Source: Morchella semilibera (Eukaryota; Ascomycota; Pezizomycetes; Pezizales; Morchellaceae). Taken from it: a DNA stretch of 64,000 bases. A program made the translations under genes and the position numbers. Shown here in pieces: positions 40,408 through 52,890 of this stretch (its first letter is position 1; each line of letters opens with the position of its first letter). The stretch lies in assembly GCA_009192285.1 (NCBI GenBank), contig WBVU01000015.1, positions 1,128,190-1,192,189 on the forward strand, in the 5' to 3' direction. The notes under the pieces were generated by a model, which saw only the letters and a program-made list of their open reading frames with translations, was not told the DNA's origin and made no database searches.

Positions 40408-40620
40408 CAAAAAAAGGGAAAAAAGGAAAAAAGGAAAAAAAGACAAAAGACTTACGTGATCAGTATCATCCCTCAAGAGCGTCGCTACCATGTTGGGCAT
40501 TCTGATCACCGCTCCCACCCGGAGTTGAACCGTAGGTGTCTCGTTACGAAGCCCAGTGAATCACCACTTAGGCCACGCTTCGGCGGGAACATTTCGTTCT
40601 GGGAAGTATAAGTGCAGCGC
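40408..40620 (-). mobile_element. tRNA-derived SINE, copy A
   Basis: Read on the minus strand it has a pol III A box, TGGCCTAAGTGG, at 40564-40575 and a B box, GGTTCAACTCC, at 40521-40531, 32 bases apart as in tRNA genes. It ends in a T/C-rich tail (A/G-rich on the plus strand, 40408-40450). The sequence is near-identical to copies B, C and D over about 160 bases. No ORF. Confidence 0.85.
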
Positions 40621-40792
40621 TACAAACACGGCAGGGCAAGAGCACGATCTAAACAAAATCCCACACCGAGAGCCCCCACGAACCGCTCTATAAGCTAGGG
40701 ATTGATTGACTGATACTTCTATAAGCTAGGGAGGAAGGAGAGAGAGGGGGAAGGTGGGGGACAGACCCGGGTGGGGGGGGGGATAAAAGATA

Positions 40793-41070
40793 AAACACTC
40801 CCCCGAGAGTTCTCACAGACCACTCTGTAGGCCAAACTACTTAGATGAGGGGAAAAAAGGGAGAGGCCAAGGGACAAACAAAAAAGAAAAAGAACAAAGA
40901 ATAAAAAGACAAAAGACTCCCTCGAGAGTTCTTATGGACCACCCACTCTGTAGGCAAAGTCAGATGGGTGAAAAAAAGAGGGAGAAACCGAAGGAACGGC
41001 TTCCTCGAGATTTCTCTCAGACATTGAACTCTGTAGGCTAAATGAGATGGAGAAAATGGTGGGGGGCCGG
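40793..41070. repeat. Degenerate minisatellite
   Basis: Units of about 85-120 bp share CTCGAGAGTTCTCACGGACC-like text, then CACTCTGTAGG and AGATGGG plus an A-rich block with AAAGACAAAAGAC. Units start near 40800, 40920 and 41005, and a fourth near 41716. The A-rich block also precedes SINE copies A and B. Confidence 0.55.
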
Positions 41071-41175
41071 GGGGAGGGGCGAACAAAAAAGAAAAAGGAA
41101 TAATCATAGAAAACAATGTTTCAATAATCCTCCGTTAGTAGATGGGAAACGGAGAGATTTCGAAATGGAGCCTTA

Positions 41176-41542
41176 GGGCGCGTTCGGAAACACTATGAAA
41201 ACCGAGTTTTAGGAGAAACTCCGTTGAAGAAGAAGTGAGTGCGTTTGGCGTCCCACTACAATACTCTGTTTTCGATGAGATAACGGAGAAATCTGCGTTA
41301 AATTAGAAAGTACATGTAGGTAGGACCTAACTTAGGGCCCGTTTAGCAACCAGACAAAACGGGGTTTCCAAGGATCAAGGCCTAACAAAAAGATCATTGT
41401 AACGGAGTTTACAACGTTTTGGCCTGTTACCCAAACGGGCCCCTAAGTTAGTAAGTAAGTACTTTTCAGAAACTCCGTTAACAACACAACCAATGTTTTT
41501 CCAAAACGGAGTTCTTACTTTGAAAGGTTCCCGAACGCGCCC
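41176..41542. mobile_element. Tourist/Harbinger-like MITE, 367 bp
   Basis: The termini GGGCGCGTTCGG and CCGAACGCGCCC are inverted repeats and both are flanked by the trinucleotide TTA (41173-41175 and 41543-41545), the target duplication usual for PIF/Harbinger elements. There is no ORF. A second inverted-repeat element lies inside at 41331-41447. Confidence 0.7.
41331..41447. mobile_element. Inner inverted-repeat element nested in the 41176 MITE
   Basis: The left end CTTAGGGCCCGTTTAGCAAC and the right end GTTACCCAAACGGGCCCCTAAG are inverted repeats with a few differences. A similar lone right end (CCCAAACGGGCCCTAAAG) stands at 41679-41697, outside the outer element, so the family has at least one more broken copy here. 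Confidence 0.6.
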
Positions 41543-41790
41543 TTAAGCATTTTCATGGGGTTAACATCATTGTTTTCTTGCCCGCAAAATGGGTCGCTAA
41601 GCACACAACACATCTTCTCAGAACGGAGTTTCCACTAAGTAGAGCGGAGTTTTAAGCCCCATAACCCGTTTTAGGTGGCTCCCAAACGGGCCCTAAAGAA
41701 TAAAAAGACAAAAGCCACCCTCGAGAGCTCTCACGGACCACTCGCTCTGGCAAAATCAAACGGGGGGGAAAAAAAGGGAGAAAACCAAAG

Positions 41791-42015
41791 GAAGAAAAAA
41801 AAAAAAAGGGAAAAAAGGAAAAAAGAGCAAAAGACTTACGTGATCAGTATCATCCCTCAAGAGCGTCGCTACCATGTTGGGCATTCTGATCACCGCTCCC
41901 ACCCGGAGTTGAACCGTAGGTGTCTCGTTACGAAGCCCAGTGAATCACCACTTAGGCCACGCTTCGGCGGGGACAATCCGTTCTGGGAAGTACAAGTGCA
42001 GCGCAGGGTAAGTTG
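41791..42015 (-). mobile_element. tRNA-derived SINE, copy B
   Basis: Same family as copy A. The A box is at 41948-41959 and the B box at 41905-41915 (minus strand). The tail is the A/G-rich plus-strand text at 41791-41832. The 5' side shares CTTCCCAGAACGGATTGTCC and CTGCGCTGCACTTGTA with other copies. Confidence 0.85.
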
Positions 42016-43043
42016 CGCTTCCCTCTCTCTGCGAGATCATCCCCCGGGTAACACACCCCCCCCCCCTCCCGCACGGCGGGTGGACGGGTTTCTCCAGGTC
42101 CTCAGCGCGGTAGCCAGCGCAGCTTAAACTTGGAAGAGCGGGGAGATCGACCTGGGCTCTTGACTCTAGGAACACTTATGTATAACCGCTCCTTGTAGCA
42201 CTCATGCCCCATGAGGTACGGTACCCAGCGGCCTGCTGGCCTAGATGCATGTATTTCTCCGCCATAAACCCATCCCCCATGCAGCACGAACAGTAAGATA
42301 CAGTAACCCCACATCTTCCATCTCAGGCTCGAGCCACGAGTATACCTTCGGCACCGCACTGCAGGATTCGTCCTTGCTCAAGTCCTGGCGAGCAAGATAC
42401 GAGCAGACAGCTCAAGCCCTCAGGGAGAGGTCGGGGGAGTGAATACATGTACCCGCACCTCCGCCCCGTCTCCATCCGTGCCAAGCCACCCGAGTGACGC
42501 CCCATGAGCCATTGCATCACCCTCTCTCACTCGCTAATCACCAAAGCCTACCGTGACGTCAGAGAAAGCAAAAAAAAAAAAAAGAAAAAAAAGAAGAAAA
42601 AAACGATCGCGCCAGGGAAAGAAGATGATATTCTGATGAAGCCGGATATTGTAACATAACACGTGTAGTGCCACAGTAAAGGAGACAAGAAAAGACACAA
42701 ACATGGGACTAGCAAAACAATTACACTAACTAAACACATCTGGCCAACCCATACCAACCCATACCATACCCCGCCCATCCATATTCTCATACCGAGTCTT
42801 GCAAGTAGGAGGTCTTCGGGCCCCGAGTCACTAATCCCGAACACAGATGTCCGCAAAGAACGGTAAAAATGCGAATGAAAAAAGAAATGAAACGAGTGAA
42901 AAAAAAAAAAAACCCCCACAACGTAAGCACATAAAAACACAAGGAAACGCCAATTCTACACCACAGCTATCAATTTAGGCAAAAGAAAAATAAGGAAAAA
43001 GAAAGAAGAAAAAGAAAGAAAAAACAAGTTAGTAAGTCACAAT

Positions 43044-44565
43044 CTACTGCAGTCCCTCGTCACTATCATCGTCAAAAGCTTCCACCTCTGCGATTGCGTC
43101 GTCTCTAGGCCCCCCTGTGTGTCCATGAACATTTGGCTCCGAGTCGGCTACATTAATAACTTTCTTTCCTTGTACCTAAAACCCCCCATAGTAATTATTA
43201 GCCCCGAACCCCCCCAGGTTTAGCAGGGAGACCATACCTCGCTGACGCCTCGTCGCCACTCCTTCCAGTCTGCTTCGTCCTTTATCAAAAACGCCAAGAG
43301 CATACTGGGATCCATCTCTCTGAGATTTAATCTTCGCAGACGGCGAGTGTGACACGTCTCAATCTCTTCGGGGGCGTATTCATCTGGATTTGCGCGGTAA
43401 GGGAGCAGTGGGCGGGCTTGGTGCGGGTCGAGATAGAAGAAAGTGTCACCTTGAACGCCGATAAAGTAATGTGACGATGATGGACGACCGCTGCGATAGG
43501 AGTACAGTTAGTAATGGTTAACATAGGATGAAAGAGAGAATAGAGAGCTACCCAGCGATACCGACAGACTGCGGCATCTGTACACAAGCCTTTAGAGCTT
43601 CCCAGTAGACTGGTGTTACTCGCTCGATGCCAAGACGGATCCCAACAAGGACAAGCGTGGGCTTAAAGACCCCGTTGACAGTCGCAACATTGCGGAAAGC
43701 ATCTTCGTAGACATCACCGCCATCGCGGGTAATATACACACGGAGGCCTGCGGGTTCGTAGTTGTTGGATAGTTCCCTGTACATAGCCCGTTAGACAAGC
43801 CATTCTGAAACCCAAGCTAGACCAGTCAGTGCGTGAGCTTACTGAATACACCTCGCGGCCGCCGACGGGCCAAACCACTCTCCCGGATGCTTCCCACAAG
43901 CCTCCTCGCCATGCTTCACAAAACGATGAATCGAGAACGGAGCTCTCGGGTCGTCCGCAAACAGCGCCAATAGTCTCTTCTCTGCCGCTGGGTCCTGTCC
44001 TCGTCGCCAATCTATACTATCTATTAGCTTCTAGGCCCGCGATATGAGACGAAACCACCAGAGCAAAAAAAAAAAAAAAAAAAAAAAAACACGCACCCCG
44101 ACCAAGCCGCAGCTGGAGAAGTGTATTCGCAAGCACACACTGTCCCGAGCGTATCATACACCCCCATCCACTATCACTCGTGAATCCCGCAGCCTGATTC
44201 GGCATCTGACTCCTCAAGTTCGTAATGAACGAGAGCCCCGCCGCGTTTTCCGGCGACTTTGCGATGGGCGCAAAGTCGTTACGGTACGTCATCCATATGC
44301 GGGACTCAAAATCGTCTAGGAACGGCTTTGGCCATGAGGACTCTGCCTCCGTCTCTGTTCGTGTAGCGGTGATGGCGGCGGGCAGGTTGAGGATGCCACT
44401 CGTCTCGGCGGAGGGAGGGGGGGCGCCAGGGCACTGAGGGGGAACGCTCGGATACTCGCGGCCGAGGAGCCAGATGGAGTTCATGGCGTCTGTATTCTTT
44501 GGTTCGGGGTCCCACAGGAATTTCTGGACGAGGCGGTGGATTCCCTCGTTGCTGAAAGTGAACAT
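43044..44565 (-). CDS. ATG4: Autophagy cysteine protease Atg4
   Basis: Five exons give 415 residues: 44097..44565, 43843..44011, 43552..43776, 43238..43490 and 43044..43175. The C54 peptidase core is clear: [35 protein letters not shown] with the nucleophile Cys136, [15 protein letters not shown], and [11 protein letters not shown] with catalytic Asp309 and His311. Atg4 trims Atg8 before lipidation and later releases it from membranes. I start at 44565 ([20 protein letters not shown]), which matches the family N-terminus; the longer frame to 44727 adds only low-complexity Cys/Arg/Pro runs. The first intron holds a run of about 25 T. The C-terminal 40 residues are acidic ([12 protein letters not shown]), as in homologues. 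It is divergent from SQS1. Confidence 0.95.
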
Positions 44566-46336
44566 ATTATGTTCGGGGGAGGCGGCTGCTTTTTCTATGT
44601 TGCAGCAGCAGCAGCAGCGGCGGCGACGGCGGCGACAGGATGGTTGGGGGGAAAGGGGAGAGGAGGAGGAAGTGGGGGGGGGGGTTGTTTGGAATGGACC
44701 AAAGTGGGTCTGCTGCCACCAGACCACGGAATGCTATTGTGACTGTTTGGTGAGATGTTTGTGGCCGAATGAGTAAAGGTAGGAGTAAAGACATGGGGGG
44801 GGGGTGGTGAGTGGTGGTGGAGTGTGGGGGGGGGATTACTGACTCTGACTGGAGAGGGGGGGGGGGGCTGGGAGAGACGTGTTGTGTCTGAATCCTGTGT
44901 GTAATAGAATTTAGGAAGAGATGATGATGTCGATGATGATGGAGAAGCTGTCTGGTAGTGTAGTGTAGCTGGACCCCTCTCTCTAGCTTTCTCGCTCACT
45001 CACTCACTCTCACTCACTTGCTCTTCACTCTCTTCACTCTTGAGGTCTATGGGCAGTTGCTAGCAGCAGCAGTAGCAGCAGCAGCAATACGCAATATCAG
45101 GGACCTCTGCACGGGAAACACAGCAAACAACCATGCAATAGGGGGGGGGGGGGAGTTGAGTTGAGTTGATTCTCTACAGAGTTATGGTATGTACGGACAG
45201 CTGTGTAACTCTAAAGAAGAGCTGACATCTCTGTCTGTGATGGGATGGTCCCCCGGTGATGGTTGTGGATGCGGTTGACGCGAGAAGAGAGCCAAGACCC
45301 GGGGAACGAAGAGAGGGGCGATTGTGATGTCAGATATGTATTATTATCGCTCCCTATCTAAAGTAGGCCATAGGTACAGTCCCACGATGCTAAGTATGTA
45401 CCCCCAAGCAAAATCTAATGTAGACTCGCACGGTTCACAAGACGAATGAACGTGGACACTGGACAGCAGCAGCAGCAGCAGCGGTTGTGCGTTTCACGAG
45501 GGCGGTTGGTCTCGTTACCGGGGGTCCAGTGCCAGTCCCTAGGGTAGGTACATGTGTAGGTAGGTAATGATTGAAACGTTTTTGAAATGCCAGCAGAGAT
45601 TGGATTATTCACAGCTGGTCCAGTTCTCAAAATGGCTCATCATGATCATCATCATCGCGGTGACTCTGTACCGCGTGTGTGTGCCTCTTCTCCTCTTCCA
45701 CCCGGTACCTTGAAACAGCTCCTCGGCCCCCACCCAGAATCGATCCCTGTAAATCAGAGAGCTTCGGCACCCTTGCCAGACTAAGATAACGGTTGATCTG
45801 ATAAGATTGTTCATAGTTCTGTCTTTTTAAGTGTCAGCGTATATCTCATACCCTTGTATAATCCAACCCAAATTCATCTGCTGCAGCTAGAAGATAGAAT
45901 TTCAAATACGCATCTAATGATCTCGATGCTCATTACCCCCAGTAGTAGTAATAATAATAATAATAATAATACTAATGATAATAATAATACTAGTAATAAT
46001 AATAGGAAGGTGACCAGTCAAAGTCGGGGGCCTGATAATTTCTGCCCCATTGCATTTCTCCGCGCACCCACATTCGCTCAAGTTCAATTGAATTCAGGCA
46101 ACCGCGCGATCCTCCCGCGGGGTCTTCTTATCTTATCAGGCGGGAACACCTAAAAACCAAATGTGAGGGACACAACCTGCTTATGTGAGAATATCCCATA
46201 CCACCACCATCATCATCACATCGATCCTGTTTCTTCCTCCCACCCTCAAAAGCTACTCCATATCCCCCTGCCCTTTCCCCCATTTCATCACACAAATCGA
46301 ATTGACCACTGGTTTCAACCCAATTCTCAGCACTCA
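44566..46336. other. Divergent intergenic region ATG4 / SQS1
   Basis: No gene recognised. It is microsatellite-rich: CAG-type repeats at 45061-45088 and 45463-45482, an AAT-type repeat at 45943-46006, and G runs at 44673-44685, 44800-44806 and 45141-45153. Both promoters should be here. Confidence 0.45.
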
Positions 46337-48938
46337 ATGGTTCACCGGGGACGTGGCGCAAATAACTTCCGTGGCGGCGGCGGCGGCGGCGGCGATTTCG
46401 GTGGCCGCGGCAGAGGTAACAGAGGCGGAGGTAACAGAGGCGGAGGTCGAGGCCGTGGAGGAGGTCGTGGAGGCTACTTTCGACAATTAGGTACATCTCG
46501 ATCTTTCCCCTGATTCCAAAAACCACCAGTGCTAAGATCGTGGCAGAAAGCGAATACCGCAACTTCACCCTAGCAGACGAGGCCAAAAATACAGAACGGC
46601 ACCACGGGAACCACGCCAGTGGCTCACTCCGCCATGCAAAGATCTCGTTTATCGCCGCTGGGCACCTGGAGCCCTCTGACCTGCTGAAACCCATAAACGC
46701 AAACATCCCACCCGTCGAAGAGGGGCAGAGCCTGCAGATGCAACCACGGGCTCGACGAGCAACATCTGACTCGACAGAGGCGGAGGAGGAGGAGGGGGAG
46801 GATTTGGACATGCAGAGCGGCTCGCCTACTCAGCCCGCTGCCAGCGAGTTGCAGGATGACCTGAATCTGGAGAAACTCGATCTAAACCCACCGGAACAAC
46901 CGTTCGTCGTGGACGTCATTGGAGACTCCTCGTTGAAGCCAAAGGGGAAGAGCCCGTTCGCAATGCCCTTCTACTCCCCGGCCCGCGAACAGTCGCCCCA
47001 GAGACCGGGTTCCGCATGCTCCTCAAGCAGCGAACGTATTGTCTTCATCCCTCGTAACAGGCGGCCCGGCCTCTCACGCACCAGCTCAATGGCCAAGCAA
47101 CCAAACTCTCCCGCACCCAAGAAAAAGGCCCCATCCCCTAAGCGGGAGCCCATGCCACCTCCAAAAGAACCTACGCCATCCCCATCCCCACCCCCACCAG
47201 CGGAGGCCAAAGCCGTCGAAACCGTCGTCTCTCACACCACCATCACAACCGTCACAGATACCCTTCCCGCTGCCCCCACTCTCGACACCAAGCCCTTCAC
47301 CCGCTCCACAAAAGGCAACAAACGGCGCAAACCCCACCGACGCAAACGGGACGAAGAGGAAGAAGAGATCATCCGCGACTACATCGAGAATGTCGCCGCC
47401 ACTATGCGCGCCGAGGATGCCGAGGAACGTGGCGAAGCCGCCCCTGCCGTTAGCATGCGGGACCTTGGCGGTGACGACGACGACCACGACCCAGAGGATG
47501 CATGGTCATCTACTACAAACTCAGAGGAGGAGGCGGAAGATTCCGATGCGGTCAATGCGTACAAGTCCGTCTGGGAGGAGCACGAACTCGGTGACCTTGA
47601 TGCCCTCAGCACAGATTCCGAGGGCCCGCGAGGGCCCGTCGATACCGTCGTGGGGAAACGTAAACGCCCCAGTGGCGTGCAGTACCTCATCAAGTGGAAG
47701 GGGTATGAGACCGATGATGCAACTTGGGTCCTCGCAAAAACGCTCGACTCTGTCGCCGAAGAAAAGGTTACCGTGTACGAGAAGATTCTCCTACAGAAAG
47801 CCATCGACGCCGCGAATGCCGCCTTAAGCTCAGATGACAGCGATGACGACGGCGATACAGATGACAGTGACTGCGTTGACGACGAGCAGCTTGCGCGCTT
47901 CCTGCAGCGCCAGGAGGAAATGGGGATCACCGAGTCGGACCTGGAGCTCAACCTTGAGCTCGACGAGCTCATGGAACTCTCCTTCCCTGGCGGCGCCAGC
48001 AGCAGCAAGAAGAAGAAAGGCAAAGGCAAAGGCAAAGGCAAGTCCCGCTACCCCGATATCGCCGCCGACCCACGCACAGGGGAGTTCCCCAACGCTACTA
48101 GATTCGCCGACGCCTATGACGACTTTGACCCCATGGACTGGGAGCGTCCGAGCATCTCAATGAATAGGAAAGGCAAGAAGGGCAAGGGGAAGCAGATTGC
48201 GGTGCTAGGACTCAGCGACTCGGAGATGGAGGAGAACATTCGTAGTTCGTGGCAGAAGGATAGGGAGAAGAAGAAGGCACGGAAGCAGGAGAGAGAGGCA
48301 TTGAGGGCCGAGGGGCTCTTGGGACGAAATAGGACCGTGAGGGACCCGAAGGCAAAGTGGAAGGAGGGGATGAGTATGAAAGACCTCAAGGATGAGATTG
48401 CGCAGTTCCTACGCAGCGAGCTGTTAAGGTACCTATCCACTCACGTAAAAAGACTAAGAGAGAGGCGAACTAACAAAAGTCCAGCATGTCCCTTCCCCCC
48501 ATGTCCAAGGCAGACCGCAAGATGGCACACACTATCGCCGCCAACTTCGGGCTCAAGTCCAAGTCGTTCGGCAAGGCCAGATCTCGGTACACAACACTCT
48601 ACAAGACATCTGCCTCTAGCCGCTATGCCCAAGACGAAGATGCCATCCTCGCCATAATGTCACGCAAGAAGTTCTTTGGCCGCCCCGATGTCGGCGGCGG
48701 TCGTGGTCGTGGCGGTGGTGGCCGCGGCGGCGGTGGCAGCGGTGGTGGTGTAGGACATCATCGTGAGGGCGACATCGTCGGTGGCTCAGCCCCGGAGATT
48801 GCGGAGGATAATAAGGGCCGCAAGATGCTGGAGAAGATGGGGTACAGGACGGGGATGGCGCTGGGCGTCGATGGGAATAAGGGGATTGTGGTGCCGGTCG
48901 CGGCGGTGGTCAAGATTTCGAAGGCGGGGTTGGGCTAA
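46337..48938 (+). CDS. SQS1: Sqs1 (R3H and G-patch protein) with an internal chromodomain-like segment
   Basis: Three exons give 829 residues: 46337..46490, 46547..48428 and 48485..48938. The start is an RGG-rich N-terminus (residues 1-50), followed by [14 protein letters not shown]. The R3H domain is at about 679-740 ([20 protein letters not shown]), a Gly-rich linker follows, and the G-patch is at about 785-829 ([20 protein letters not shown]). This layout is that of Sqs1/Pfa1, which activates the helicase Prp43 in ribosome and spliceosome work. Unusually, residues about 416-470 read as a chromodomain ([20 protein letters not shown], then TW, then [17 protein letters not shown]) between acidic stretches. 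The frame is open across it with no splice site, so it is not a split neighbour. The splice acceptor at 46546 was chosen because it alone keeps the conserved frame. Confidence 0.9.
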
Positions 48939-50310
48939 TGCGGTACGGGGGGAAGATTTGGTCGGGCTTCGTTTCGGCTTTTCGCTTCTCTTTTCTTCTC
49001 TTCTTTTGTATTATTACTGCTGGTATGCTTTCCATGCTGTGGGAGGAGTGATGATTTTTCCCAAAGGGTAGGAAAAGGAATGGAGGGAAGGTGGAGGGGG
49101 GGGAGAGAGAATTGTAGCGCCTGTTTCATGTTGCCGGCAAAAGTTTGTCCTTTTTTTCTTTTTTATCTCTTTCGTTTTTTTTTTTTATTTTACATATATT
49201 CTGCTGCTTCTGATATTTCCTGTTGAATCCGGGACTGGTTTATCAAAGTAATCACTTGTGGAAACTTCATAATCGAAAACTTCATAATCGAGCTTGACGC
49301 ACTTGTCGGTACCAATCTGCTTCCCGTCTGTCTGTTCTGTTCTGCTCGTTTGATCGAAAAACGATGATGGGCTATATATAGATTAGTGGTGTGAATCATG
49401 GCCTCTCACTCGTGTCTTGGCAGATGCAATATCGACCGTGGAGATGCGGGAGATGAGGTGGGAGAGATAAGAAATCCGAGTGGGAGAGAGGGAGGGGAAG
49501 AAGAGTTTGGGGTATGCAACACATATAGATTAAGTACATGTACCTACACGTGGTCTCTCCTTACCACTGCAATTAAAGCCTGGGAAAGTCAATTCCAGCG
49601 TACGTTTCTTCCCAGCTAGAGTACATGTACGTACGCGTACGCCTCAACGACGGAGCCAAACGTCCTACATGAGCTACATGTACGTATGTAATAGAGAGTA
49701 CATGTAAGATGTACATACTACATGTATGTATGTCTGATGTACATACATGCGTAAAGTGATCGAAGGGAGCCGTATGTATTACCCCAGTAAACCAGCAGGA
49801 AGGAGGAACGGTGTCGAGAAAGAGCTGCATGCTGCCCCCAATCCCGGAGATCTTGTTGTCTCCCTTATTACATACATACATGTACATGTAAACAATTGAT
49901 CTCCCATACAGACCCCGACCCTCTATTATCTCCCGGATGTCCAAGACATTTGCGAAATCTCATGTATTAGTGTGGCCTATGTAGGAAATGATGAACCAAA
50001 GTAAAGCAGCCTGCGAAGTTTATGGACTCCTTAAGTACATACATGTAGATATTCTAAAGACTGATAATATATATATAGTAAACTACATGTACTTACTTGG
50101 ATGCTTTTAACAGTAAATACTCAAGATCACATGACCTTTATACATCAGAAAATTTCGCAATTGTCTTGAACATCCGGGAGATAGGGGGGCCAGCATTGGC
50201 AGCTTAAGGGATAGAGTGATCTATGAAGACGATCGATGTGGGGTTTTGTTTAGCTCGTGCTCGAGATGCTCTGTCTTTGCTGTGTCCTTGCCCGGCCATG
50301 TTTGTTTGCA

Positions 50311-50529
50311 GTGCAACTTACCCTGCACTTATACTTCCCAGAAAGAGTTGTTCCCGCCGAAGCGTGGCCTAAGTGGTGATTCACTGGGCTTCGTGCCGAG
50401 ACACCTACGGTTCAACTCCGGGTGGGAGCGGTGATCAGAATGCCCAACATGGTAGCGACGCTCTTGAGGGATGATACTGATCACGTAAGTCTTTTGTCTT
50501 TTTTTCCTTTTTTCCCTTTTTTTTTTTTT
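50311..50529 (+). mobile_element. tRNA-derived SINE, copy C
   Basis: The only copy on the plus strand. A box TGGCCTAAGTGG at 50365-50376, B box GGTTCAACTCC at 50409-50419, 32 bases between. The 3' end is a T-rich tail (about 50490-50529). The head shares GTGCAACTTACCCTGCACTT-like text with copy B. Confidence 0.87.
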
Positions 50530-52050
50530 GATGCGTGCTTTTGTGGGGGAGGTTACGGCTTTTAGCACTGCCCCGCGCCTGCCCGGCTCGGTGGCGGGGT
50601 AAAAGGCTTACAGGGCATTATGTATCTGAGAGCCTTTCTATTTACTGTCTTGTAATCGTATTATTTCTCAATCTGCTCCCCTCCCTTTCTCTATCCGCTA
50701 GCTACAATGAAGTGACCATGATAAAAACCCATATGTGGAGGGGTTACATACTGATAGCCGGAAAGGGGGGAGTGTGCAGGTGTTCACAGTGAGTGAGGGG
50801 GTGTCAATAGATGGTGATGATATCGTCGGTGATAGCAGAAGGTGCCTAGGGTGCTGGGCGCAGGGCGCAGGAATGGAGTGTGTATAGAGTTTTGTGTTTA
50901 ACTTTTCTAAAATGGTGGGGAGTGCAAAGTACATGTACCGAGCTGCTGCTAGCTCTGATGATACATGTAAGTACCTGGTGTCTACGGGGTTCAGTCTTTG
51001 GATCAAGATGAGGGTGTTGTACTACTACATGTACTATACACCACGTTTCTGGGCGGGGTGGAATATACATGTCCATGTAGCTCGGCCGTGTAGGGCCTTT
51101 GTGGTAGGAGAGCGTAAGTTTGTTCTCCTTCCTCTCGTGGTTTAGAGGGATATCCACCTCCCCTTTTTATTCCCCCTAGTCCTGCTTAAAAGTACTCTTT
51201 TCTCATGGTGATAGCTCTTAGCAACTTTTGCTTTTCCTTGGGGGACCAGCACCCAGAACTCGCCCAGCCAACCACAAACACCACGGCACCGAGCTACTGA
51301 AATTACACAAAGTAACATGCGATCCTTAATACTGGCTGTCCGGTTGACCCTAAAACTATGTAATGTTACATACTATGGTATTAATAAATACCCCAGGTCC
51401 TCAATGTTCAGTTTTCAAAATGCACTGGCAAATGGTGAGTACTATGCTGTAGCGGGCACTGGGATTGGAACAAGCCCTCGTGCTGACATTTGTGGCAGGG
51501 CCAAAATGGCACTGACGCTGACATGTGAGGGAGGCATCGGACAGGACAGTGAATGTGAAAAGAAAAAGGTAGGCTTCGGGGCGCTTGATAGGCTTTGGGG
51601 AAGGGGGGGGGGGGGGTTGTTTAATTCATTAATTGTATATGCATAAGCTTCGGGACTTGGTAAGCTCAGGGCTTGGTAAACTTTGGGGCTTGGTGAAAAC
51701 GAAAAAAAAAAAAAAAAAAAAAAAGCCCTCCCATTGTAGTAAATGATCCATTTTAACCTAGCGGTTTTGTACTCTTTCTCCTTCCTACAATTAAGATTGT
51801 GAACTGGTTGATTAGAACCTATTGCTCCTCCTTCATTATTGACTATATACATCTTCTGCAGATAGCCCCAAATTTATGGGATACTTGAACCACTGACATG
51901 ACATTGTCCCATAATTAATGGGCGCGGCCATATGAAGTATGTAACTCCTGACAGCTGATATCCCAACCCCCGCGCTTGCTATAGTATATAGTTTTCTCTA
52001 GACCCAAGATGTACCGAATACCACAATACCCATTTTTACTTTGGGGAAGA

Positions 52051-52272
52051 TATTGCGGGTTGACAAAAGTTCTCGTGATTTCTGCACAGCAACCAGCAGA
52101 AACTTTCTAAGGACTTAAACCTAGGTACTATGTTCTAATAGCCTTCAGCTCTCTAGTCATACCAATATCCTTCTCGTATCTCTACTTAGTTACATGTAGT
52201 AGTCGCCAAGTTATAGTCGTTTCGTGACCTATCCTTGTATAAAATCACGAGAACTTTTGCCACCCTACAATA
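52051..52272. mobile_element. Inverted-repeat element (MITE-like), TATTGYGGGT family
   Basis: The left end TATTGCGGGTTGACAAAAGT continues TCTCGTGATT; the reverse complement of the right end reads TATTGTAGGGTGGCAAAAGT then the same TCTCGTGATT. The inner 18 bases, CAAAAGTTCTCGTGATTT, match perfectly. No ORF. A related element with the same terminal start lies at 56624-56772. Confidence 0.6.
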
Positions 52273-52285
52273 CGTATGCTATGGG

Positions 52286-52577
52286 GTATGGTGCGGTAAA
52301 TGTGTCAAAGGTAATTTTACCACCGGTGGCATAGGCGCTGAATTTCAGTTCTTGTTCCAGTATAAAAGCTAATTTTCAGTCTTCTTGCTGCGCTATCATG
52401 ACTACAAACACTTATGAAGGTTTCCCACCAGTAGAAAAACTCCCCACCGGTAGACAATAGGGCTCATACATTGGCCATAAAAAGTGACATCATAGGTCAT
52501 GGTATTATTTTCACCACCGGTGGTAAAATAATTTACTATCGTTGGTAAAATTACTTTTGACACATTTGCCGCTCCAT
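52286..52577. mobile_element. MITE-like element with 9-10 bp target duplication
   Basis: The left end TATGGTGCGGTAAATGTGTC and the reverse complement of the right end TATGGAGCGGCAAATGTGTC stay similar for about 40 bases. ATGCTATGGG stands directly outside on both sides (52276-52285 and 52578-52587). A 9-10 bp duplication suggests a Mutator-type origin. CACCGGTG palindromes occur inside. No ORF. Confidence 0.7.
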
Positions 52578-52689
52578 ATGCTATGGGACCAGGCTTGCCA
52601 TAGTATCGAATACCCCACCCAACCGAACGAGCTCTTAGGAGATAAATCAAACCAAATGGGAAAAGGAGGGGGGGGGGGGGGGGGGGGAT

Positions 52690-52890
52690 GAAAAACAAAA
52701 AAATAATATAGAGAAAAAAAAGGCAAAAGACTTACGTGATCAGTATCATCCCTCAAGAGCGTCGCTACCATGTTGGGCATTCTGATCACCGCTCCCACCC
52801 GGAGTTGAACCGTAGGTGTCTCGGTACGAAGCCCAGTGAATCACCACTTAGGCCACGCTTCGGCGGGGACAATCTGTTCTGGGAAGTATA
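52690..52890 (-). mobile_element. tRNA-derived SINE, copy D
   Basis: A box at 52844-52855 and B box at 52801-52811 on the minus strand. It shares the same body as copies A-C, but its head is shorter, ending at the GGGAAGTATAA text near 52890. The tail abuts the 20-base G run at 52668-52687. Confidence 0.85.

Follow-up and report, generated by a model that had tools for sequence, protein, structure and literature searches.

Four closely similar repeats, each carrying A and B boxes of the RNA polymerase III (pol III) type, lie in a 64-kb stretch of the genome of the morel Morchella semilibera (assembly GCA_009192285.1, contig WBVU01000015.1, here C12:1128190-1192189; 48% GC), which we call the window, and they raise the question of whether such repeats are mobile elements or genes. 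The original prediction took them for a recently spread, tRNA-derived family of short interspersed nuclear elements (SINEs). The dispersed, tRNA-like, pol III-boxed and many-copy character of the repeat stood up to analysis of the whole genome (56.76 Mb in 23 contigs, numbered with C); its classification as a SINE and a recent spread of the family did not. Sequence comparison among copies makes it probable, in our judgment, that the four are members of a dispersed family of pol III-type non-coding RNA genes whose tRNA-like head is degenerate and whose 3' hairpin is conserved.

Family size and constraint on the copies

A 24-base core within the 3' hairpin matched the genome at 120 places with three or fewer mismatches, at least 100 of them exactly, vs none for the reversed core pattern used as control, which excludes chance. 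These places are on many contigs, so that the window holds only some of the repeats, and their genome-wide scatter rules out a tandem array or a single segmental duplication. Because the 13 core places of C13 repeat those of C12, and the three of C10 repeat those of C9, at closely similar positions, we count 104 loci. The contigs C12/C13, C9/C10 and part of C21/C22 are near-duplicates, with 5S ribosomal RNA (rRNA), tRNA and family loci recurring at closely similar positions, and may be either separate haplotypes or assembly redundancy. Copy statistics cover the 99 loci that were read (five are not included), flank statistics the 83 type B copies tested, and covariation 80 distinct copies. Twelve of the 99 have the form seen in the window (type A) and 87 a second form (type B). 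Outside the window, the eight type A copies are at C12:1282473, C3:1861552, C3:329809, C22:2299881, C6:189791, C9:1966367, C2:2622575 and C4:1413081.

In many type B copies the repeated unit exceeds the transcript: in some pairs homology extends as far as about -400 on one side of the core and +385 on the other, and 60 of the 83 copies can be aligned with another over 150 or more far-flank sites. Across the 298 pairs thus formed, far flanks differ at 13.4% of sites, transcripts at 3.7% and cores at 0 of 7151 sites, the transcript being less divergent than the far flank in 293 of them. In 23 disjoint pairs the corresponding counts are 809 of 6676 (12.1%), 123 of 3321 (3.7%) and 0 of 552 (core vs flank, Fisher p = 4e-30). 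Flank divergence is understated here, because flanks too diverged to align drop out. In 800 sampled pairs of the 83 copies, mean p-distance fell from 0.178 over the 45 bases directly upstream to 0.049 over the transcript and 0.002 over the core; at -160 to -90 it was 0.300, vs a shuffled level of 0.326. From such comparisons we infer selection on each copy.

Type A heads differ at 699 of 4289 sites (16.3%, with gap placement in these heads approximate) and 3' domains at 135 of 5016 (2.7%), with 0 of 1848 in columns 99-126; between the types, heads differ at 31.9% and 3' domains at 8.3%. Since divergence of head and 3' domain differs so, we regard the core hairpin as the part common to both types, the type B head being also held. 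Recent spread had been read from the few differences among the window's copies; these are indeed close to each other (96.7%, 96.7% and 94.0% identity to the copy at 50345-50530, over 182-184 bases), but recent spread of the family does not follow, because type A heads diverge so much more than their 3' domains. Variation in the transcript is concentrated at certain loop and stem positions, several of them changed on both sides.

The type B head gave 101 genome matches at three or fewer mismatches (79 exact; one match is a type A copy), and its control 0. All were assigned to core matches, 95 at listed places by position (by eye), one at an unlisted place that must be locus L096, and five by arithmetic; decayed or orphan heads or cores at three or fewer mismatches were found nowhere in the genome. 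As every head match has a core match, there are at this threshold no clear pseudogenes except L092 and L093, which have A-box deletions, and L066, which has lost its terminator.

Two further observations concern flanks. L026 and L119 (C23:2156203 and C19:4057342) are a recent segmental duplication, with 9 differences in 1116 flank sites. The 3' flank of type B locus L020 matches C2:2306251, C2:5539441, C19:722873, C11:224705 and C15:355398, none with a core match nearby; thus either this carried flank is itself repeated at those places or the gene was lost from them.

Gene plan and RNA fold

All four window copies were found at the positions and on the strands first reported. Head to terminator (aligned columns 1-152), they occupy 50354-50495 on the plus strand and 40445-40586, 41829-41970 and 52725-52866 on the minus strand. 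In the plus-strand copy, the TATA-like box TTATAC (50329-50334) stands 25 bases before the head, and the A box TGGCCTAAGTGG (50365-50376) and B box GGTTCAACTCC (50409-50419) are, as described, 32 bases apart. The conserved 3' domain (50421-50484) consists of GGTGGGAGC and then the hairpin strands GTGATCAG (50431-50438) and CTGATCAC (50477-50484), with the core at 50451-50474; the pol III-type terminator TTTT follows at 50492-50495, and the T/C-rich tail of type A comes only past it (50496-50530). The heads had been thought variably truncated by incomplete reverse transcription; the whole head is present in all 12 type A copies. The gene-free location holds as well, in that the four lie outside open reading frames (ORFs) of 250 or more amino acids; protein genes elsewhere in the window include a DUF3638/DUF3645 protein, a Syf1-type splicing factor and a ferric-reductase-like oxidase. 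The region 40600-41800, around the first two copies, holds further short repeats with CTCTGTAGGC- and GAGAGTTCTC-type units, and similar stretches adjoin other type A copies (by eye).

Type B copies run in the order GCATCGTGGCG, A box, long hairpin, T arm with B box, GGTGGGAGC, hairpin GTGATGAG...CTCATCAC around the core, and RTAAGTCTTTT. Type A has a different head (CGCCGAAGCG...) and its own hairpin strands, and L084 is intermediate, joining a type A-like head to GTGATGAG. The 3' side of a tRNA-Ala gene (L163), GTCTTTTTTGCCGGC, is much like the type B 3' sequence GTCTTTTGTTGCCGGC. The pol III boxes are kept outside the window too: among the 99 copies we found the A box in 97, the B box in 96 by scan (97 by eye, the one in L092 having been missed owing to the deletions there), the terminator in 98, the exact core in 97 and all four in 93, with a premature TTTT in none. 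The upstream position -25 is occupied by ATAAAC in 66 of the 97 aligned copies, and by TTATAC or TTGTAC in 8 of the 12 type A copies. C[AG]TAAA occurs within 45 bases upstream of 68 of the 83 type B copies, at a single position in 67, vs 5 of 83 when shuffled; a TTGCCAAGG-like motif (at most one mismatch) is found at -71 to -45, loosely positioned, in 71 of 83, vs 0 of 83 shuffled upstream regions.

A hand-drawn structure of 29 pairs was scored on the 80 distinct copies against 500 shuffles, with statistics that ignore relatedness. Paired cells made up 94.6%, and both-sided changes affected 6 pairs and 36 cells, vs 2.7 and 5.6 in shuffles; 2 of the 500 shuffles reached 6 pairs and none reached 36 cells. 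As a further control, the same structure slid along the alignment gave 0-3 pairs changed on both sides. Among the clearest covariations are T-arm pair 59-71 (AU in 61 copies, CG in 13, UA in 4, unpaired in 2) and hairpin pair 88-135 (GC in 48, GU in 21, CG in 10, AU in 1, unpaired in 0), and at pair 89-134 loci L095 and L096 show the GU intermediate and the completed change. RNAalifold, unguided, gave most of the same helices plus an acceptor-like stem, 2-5/72-75.

Several other identities were set aside. ARAGORN called a tRNA gene in 0 of the 99 copies and none in the window, vs 20 of 20 tRNA controls. Box C (RUGAUGA) and box D (CUGA) mark C/D box small nucleolar RNAs; by eye, the hairpin ends give GUGAUGA without CUGA in type B, and CUGA with GUGAUCA in type A. 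A protein-coding gene was dropped because any reading frame is shifted by insertions, 1 to 4 columns long, that follow GATGA, and because no third-position pattern appears (by eye); a spliced-leader RNA was dropped because the GTAAGT near the 3' end reads ATAAGT in many copies (by eye, alignment). Rfam release 15 had no gathering match in the window; for three loci (one type B, two type A) it gave 10 hits with E<5, all outside the gene. As antisense to 5S, U6 or the 12 of 20 tRNAs read, the sense strand never went beyond shuffles (best 21 of 200); the antisense strand with U6 was reached by 4 of 200 shuffles, which we take as chance. A U6 search of the genome gave one match, and a small-subunit rRNA pattern 0 in the assembly at one mismatch. 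The exact core was absent from GTDB contigs and from IMG/VR (prokaryote and viral collections), five 15-19 base forms of the core letters occurred in none of the papers searched, and no description of such a family appeared in the portions of the literature returned by topic searches.

Genes, mobile elements or homogenised repeats

Taken as genes, about 104 dispersed loci would all encode one small non-coding RNA of about 145 nt, transcribed by pol III presumably through TFIIIC. The head would carry the promoter, and its fold would comprise a short stem resembling an acceptor stem, a T arm and, where a tRNA has its D and anticodon arms, a single long hairpin. The effector would be the 3' hairpin, whose inner sequence CCCAAYATGGTAGCGACGCTCTTGAGGGATGA is fixed and which all types have in common; it would bind a protein or else a partner RNA, and the type B head appears to be under constraint similar to that on the hairpin. 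Type B would have spread mainly by duplications carrying flanks. We propose a dosage effect as the reason for the retention of copies, every one contributing to the supply of a single RNA in the manner of dispersed 5S rRNA genes. A larger claim, which we find quite possible and put forward tentatively, is that the loci encode a housekeeping RNA, abundant and hitherto undescribed, that belongs to this fungal lineage and has about as many genes as 5S rRNA. It would have been built from a unit once tRNA-like, and perhaps SINE-like, to which a 3' hairpin was added that is now indispensable; the 104 loci would then be true genes and not repeats.

Several results weigh against this interpretation. 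In 5 of the 298 pairs, transcript divergence equals or exceeds that of the flank. The near flank (75 bases up, 40 down) differs at 12.5%, close to the far-flank value, so that only short motifs there can be under promoter constraint. Variation in the 3' strand of the hairpin (12.4%) leaves the type B 3' domain, at 5.8%, no better conserved than the head, at 4.2%. The covariation test's neglect of relatedness belongs here too, as do broken pairs in the drawn structure (columns 12-39 in 71 of the 80 copies, 87-136 in 21, 8-43 in 11 and 85-138 in 8) and a folding energy that is unremarkable for type A (z -0.58; one type B sequence had z -3.0). Two copies without an A box and one without a terminator have all kept the core, which selection copy by copy does not explain well. 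A 9-base direct repeat, GAACAGGAC, on both sides of type A copy L013 (C22:2299881) is the best candidate for a target-site duplication.

That last repeat would be expected of a tRNA-derived SINE family, whose pol III transcripts are reverse-copied by a long interspersed nuclear element (LINE), whose core is needed by the reverse transcriptase, and whose mobile branch is type A, with its T/C tail and often unrelated outer flanks. The pol III boxes and genome-wide dispersal suit such a family. A LINE-type endonuclease has 61 genome matches, of which 60 exceed the cut-off; some are on duplicate contigs, and four fall in ORFs of more than 1300 amino acids. Some type A copies may thus indeed be retroposed, and type A as a whole may even now be a mobile branch or derive from one. 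Its longest shared stretches run from -94..-208 to +57..+214, and for several copies only about 180-260 bases are shared; its longest flank repeats average 4.6 bases vs 3.3 in swapped flanks. However, direct repeats at insertion sites gave a plausible target-site duplication in only 1 of the 12 type A copies, where we estimate about 0.3 chance 9-base matches; in the far flanks of type B the longest repeats averaged 7.6 bases vs 7.2 in the swapped control. Diverged flanks outside the transcript are common to type B copies and to some type A pairs (L014 and the copy at 41829-41970 share -208 to +196 at 78%), and the T/C tail sits past the terminator. Constraint on source copies alone would leave the core of old copies unprotected, yet the decay expected after insertion is seen neither in the cores of the disjoint pairs nor as orphan heads. 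We thus reject a recent SINE burst for type B, on the shared, diverged flanks around an unchanged core, and think a SINE origin for the family as a whole unlikely.

Uniform transcripts amid diverged flanks, and exact cores in copies lacking an A box or terminator, would also result from homogenisation, in which gene conversion or recombination with the family's own complementary DNA keeps the transcribed region alike without selection on each copy. This we consider rather less likely still, for transcript variation has not been erased but is concentrated, partly as both-sided changes, at some loop and stem positions, and type A heads differ far more than their 3' domains (16% and 3%). Least probable, to the point of being hard to credit, is that the copies act in cis as DNA, serving as insulators or boundaries bound by TFIIIC, with a transcript of no consequence: the boxes are kept and the window copies avoid long ORFs, but the core, not the boxes, is the most invariant stretch, and RNA-type covariation, fixed TATA spacing and the terminator point to a transcript.

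Repeat annotation would probably mask the family's loci as SINEs. If they are genes, about 104 loci of a eukaryote are given to one unknown small RNA, and the invariant hairpin is a ready bait for a partner search. The two types, with the same hairpin on different heads, would show promoter and effector separating, and the family would offer a concrete test of the transition from repeat to gene family.

Comparison with known systems

Dispersed 5S rRNA genes occur in filamentous ascomycetes. In this genome, 5S genes gave at least 47 scored matches, of which at least 38 remain once the C21/C22 duplicates are removed; some are scattered and others clustered, and their helices show compensating changes between copies (by eye, in the 16 copies L130-L145). 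The family resembles them in its many, partly scattered single genes and covarying stems, and CTTTT directly after the gene in several 5S copies recalls its terminator; it differs in its type 2 (A/B box) promoter, its unrelated sequence and its shared type B flanks, whereas 5S flanks appear unrelated by eye (upstream in 6 copies, downstream in 16). That about 104 loci exceed the 38 distinct 5S matches, a lower bound, suggests a central task, if the loci are genes. The tRNA-miRNA genes (TMERs) of murine gammaherpesvirus 68 also have a tRNA-like pol III head followed by a hairpin; unlike TMERs, the family has a head that does not fold as a tRNA (by ARAGORN) and one hairpin common to about 104 loci.

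Fungal SINEs such as MgSINE, Foxy, SINE2-1_BG and AfuSINE2 are likewise tRNA-derived, and in the portions of the literature available to us the copy numbers of MgSINE (about 100) and Foxy (about 160; PMC5063351) are similar to that of the family. It is set apart from them, by features and not by sequence, in its invariant core despite diverged flanks, its shared flanks and the near absence of target-site duplications. HaSE1 and HaSE2, SINEs with a conserved central domain (PMC3272025), resemble it, as far as the part of that account consulted goes, in a tRNA-related head followed by a conserved domain; in the morel family, unlike these, conservation holds copy by copy while the flanks diverge.

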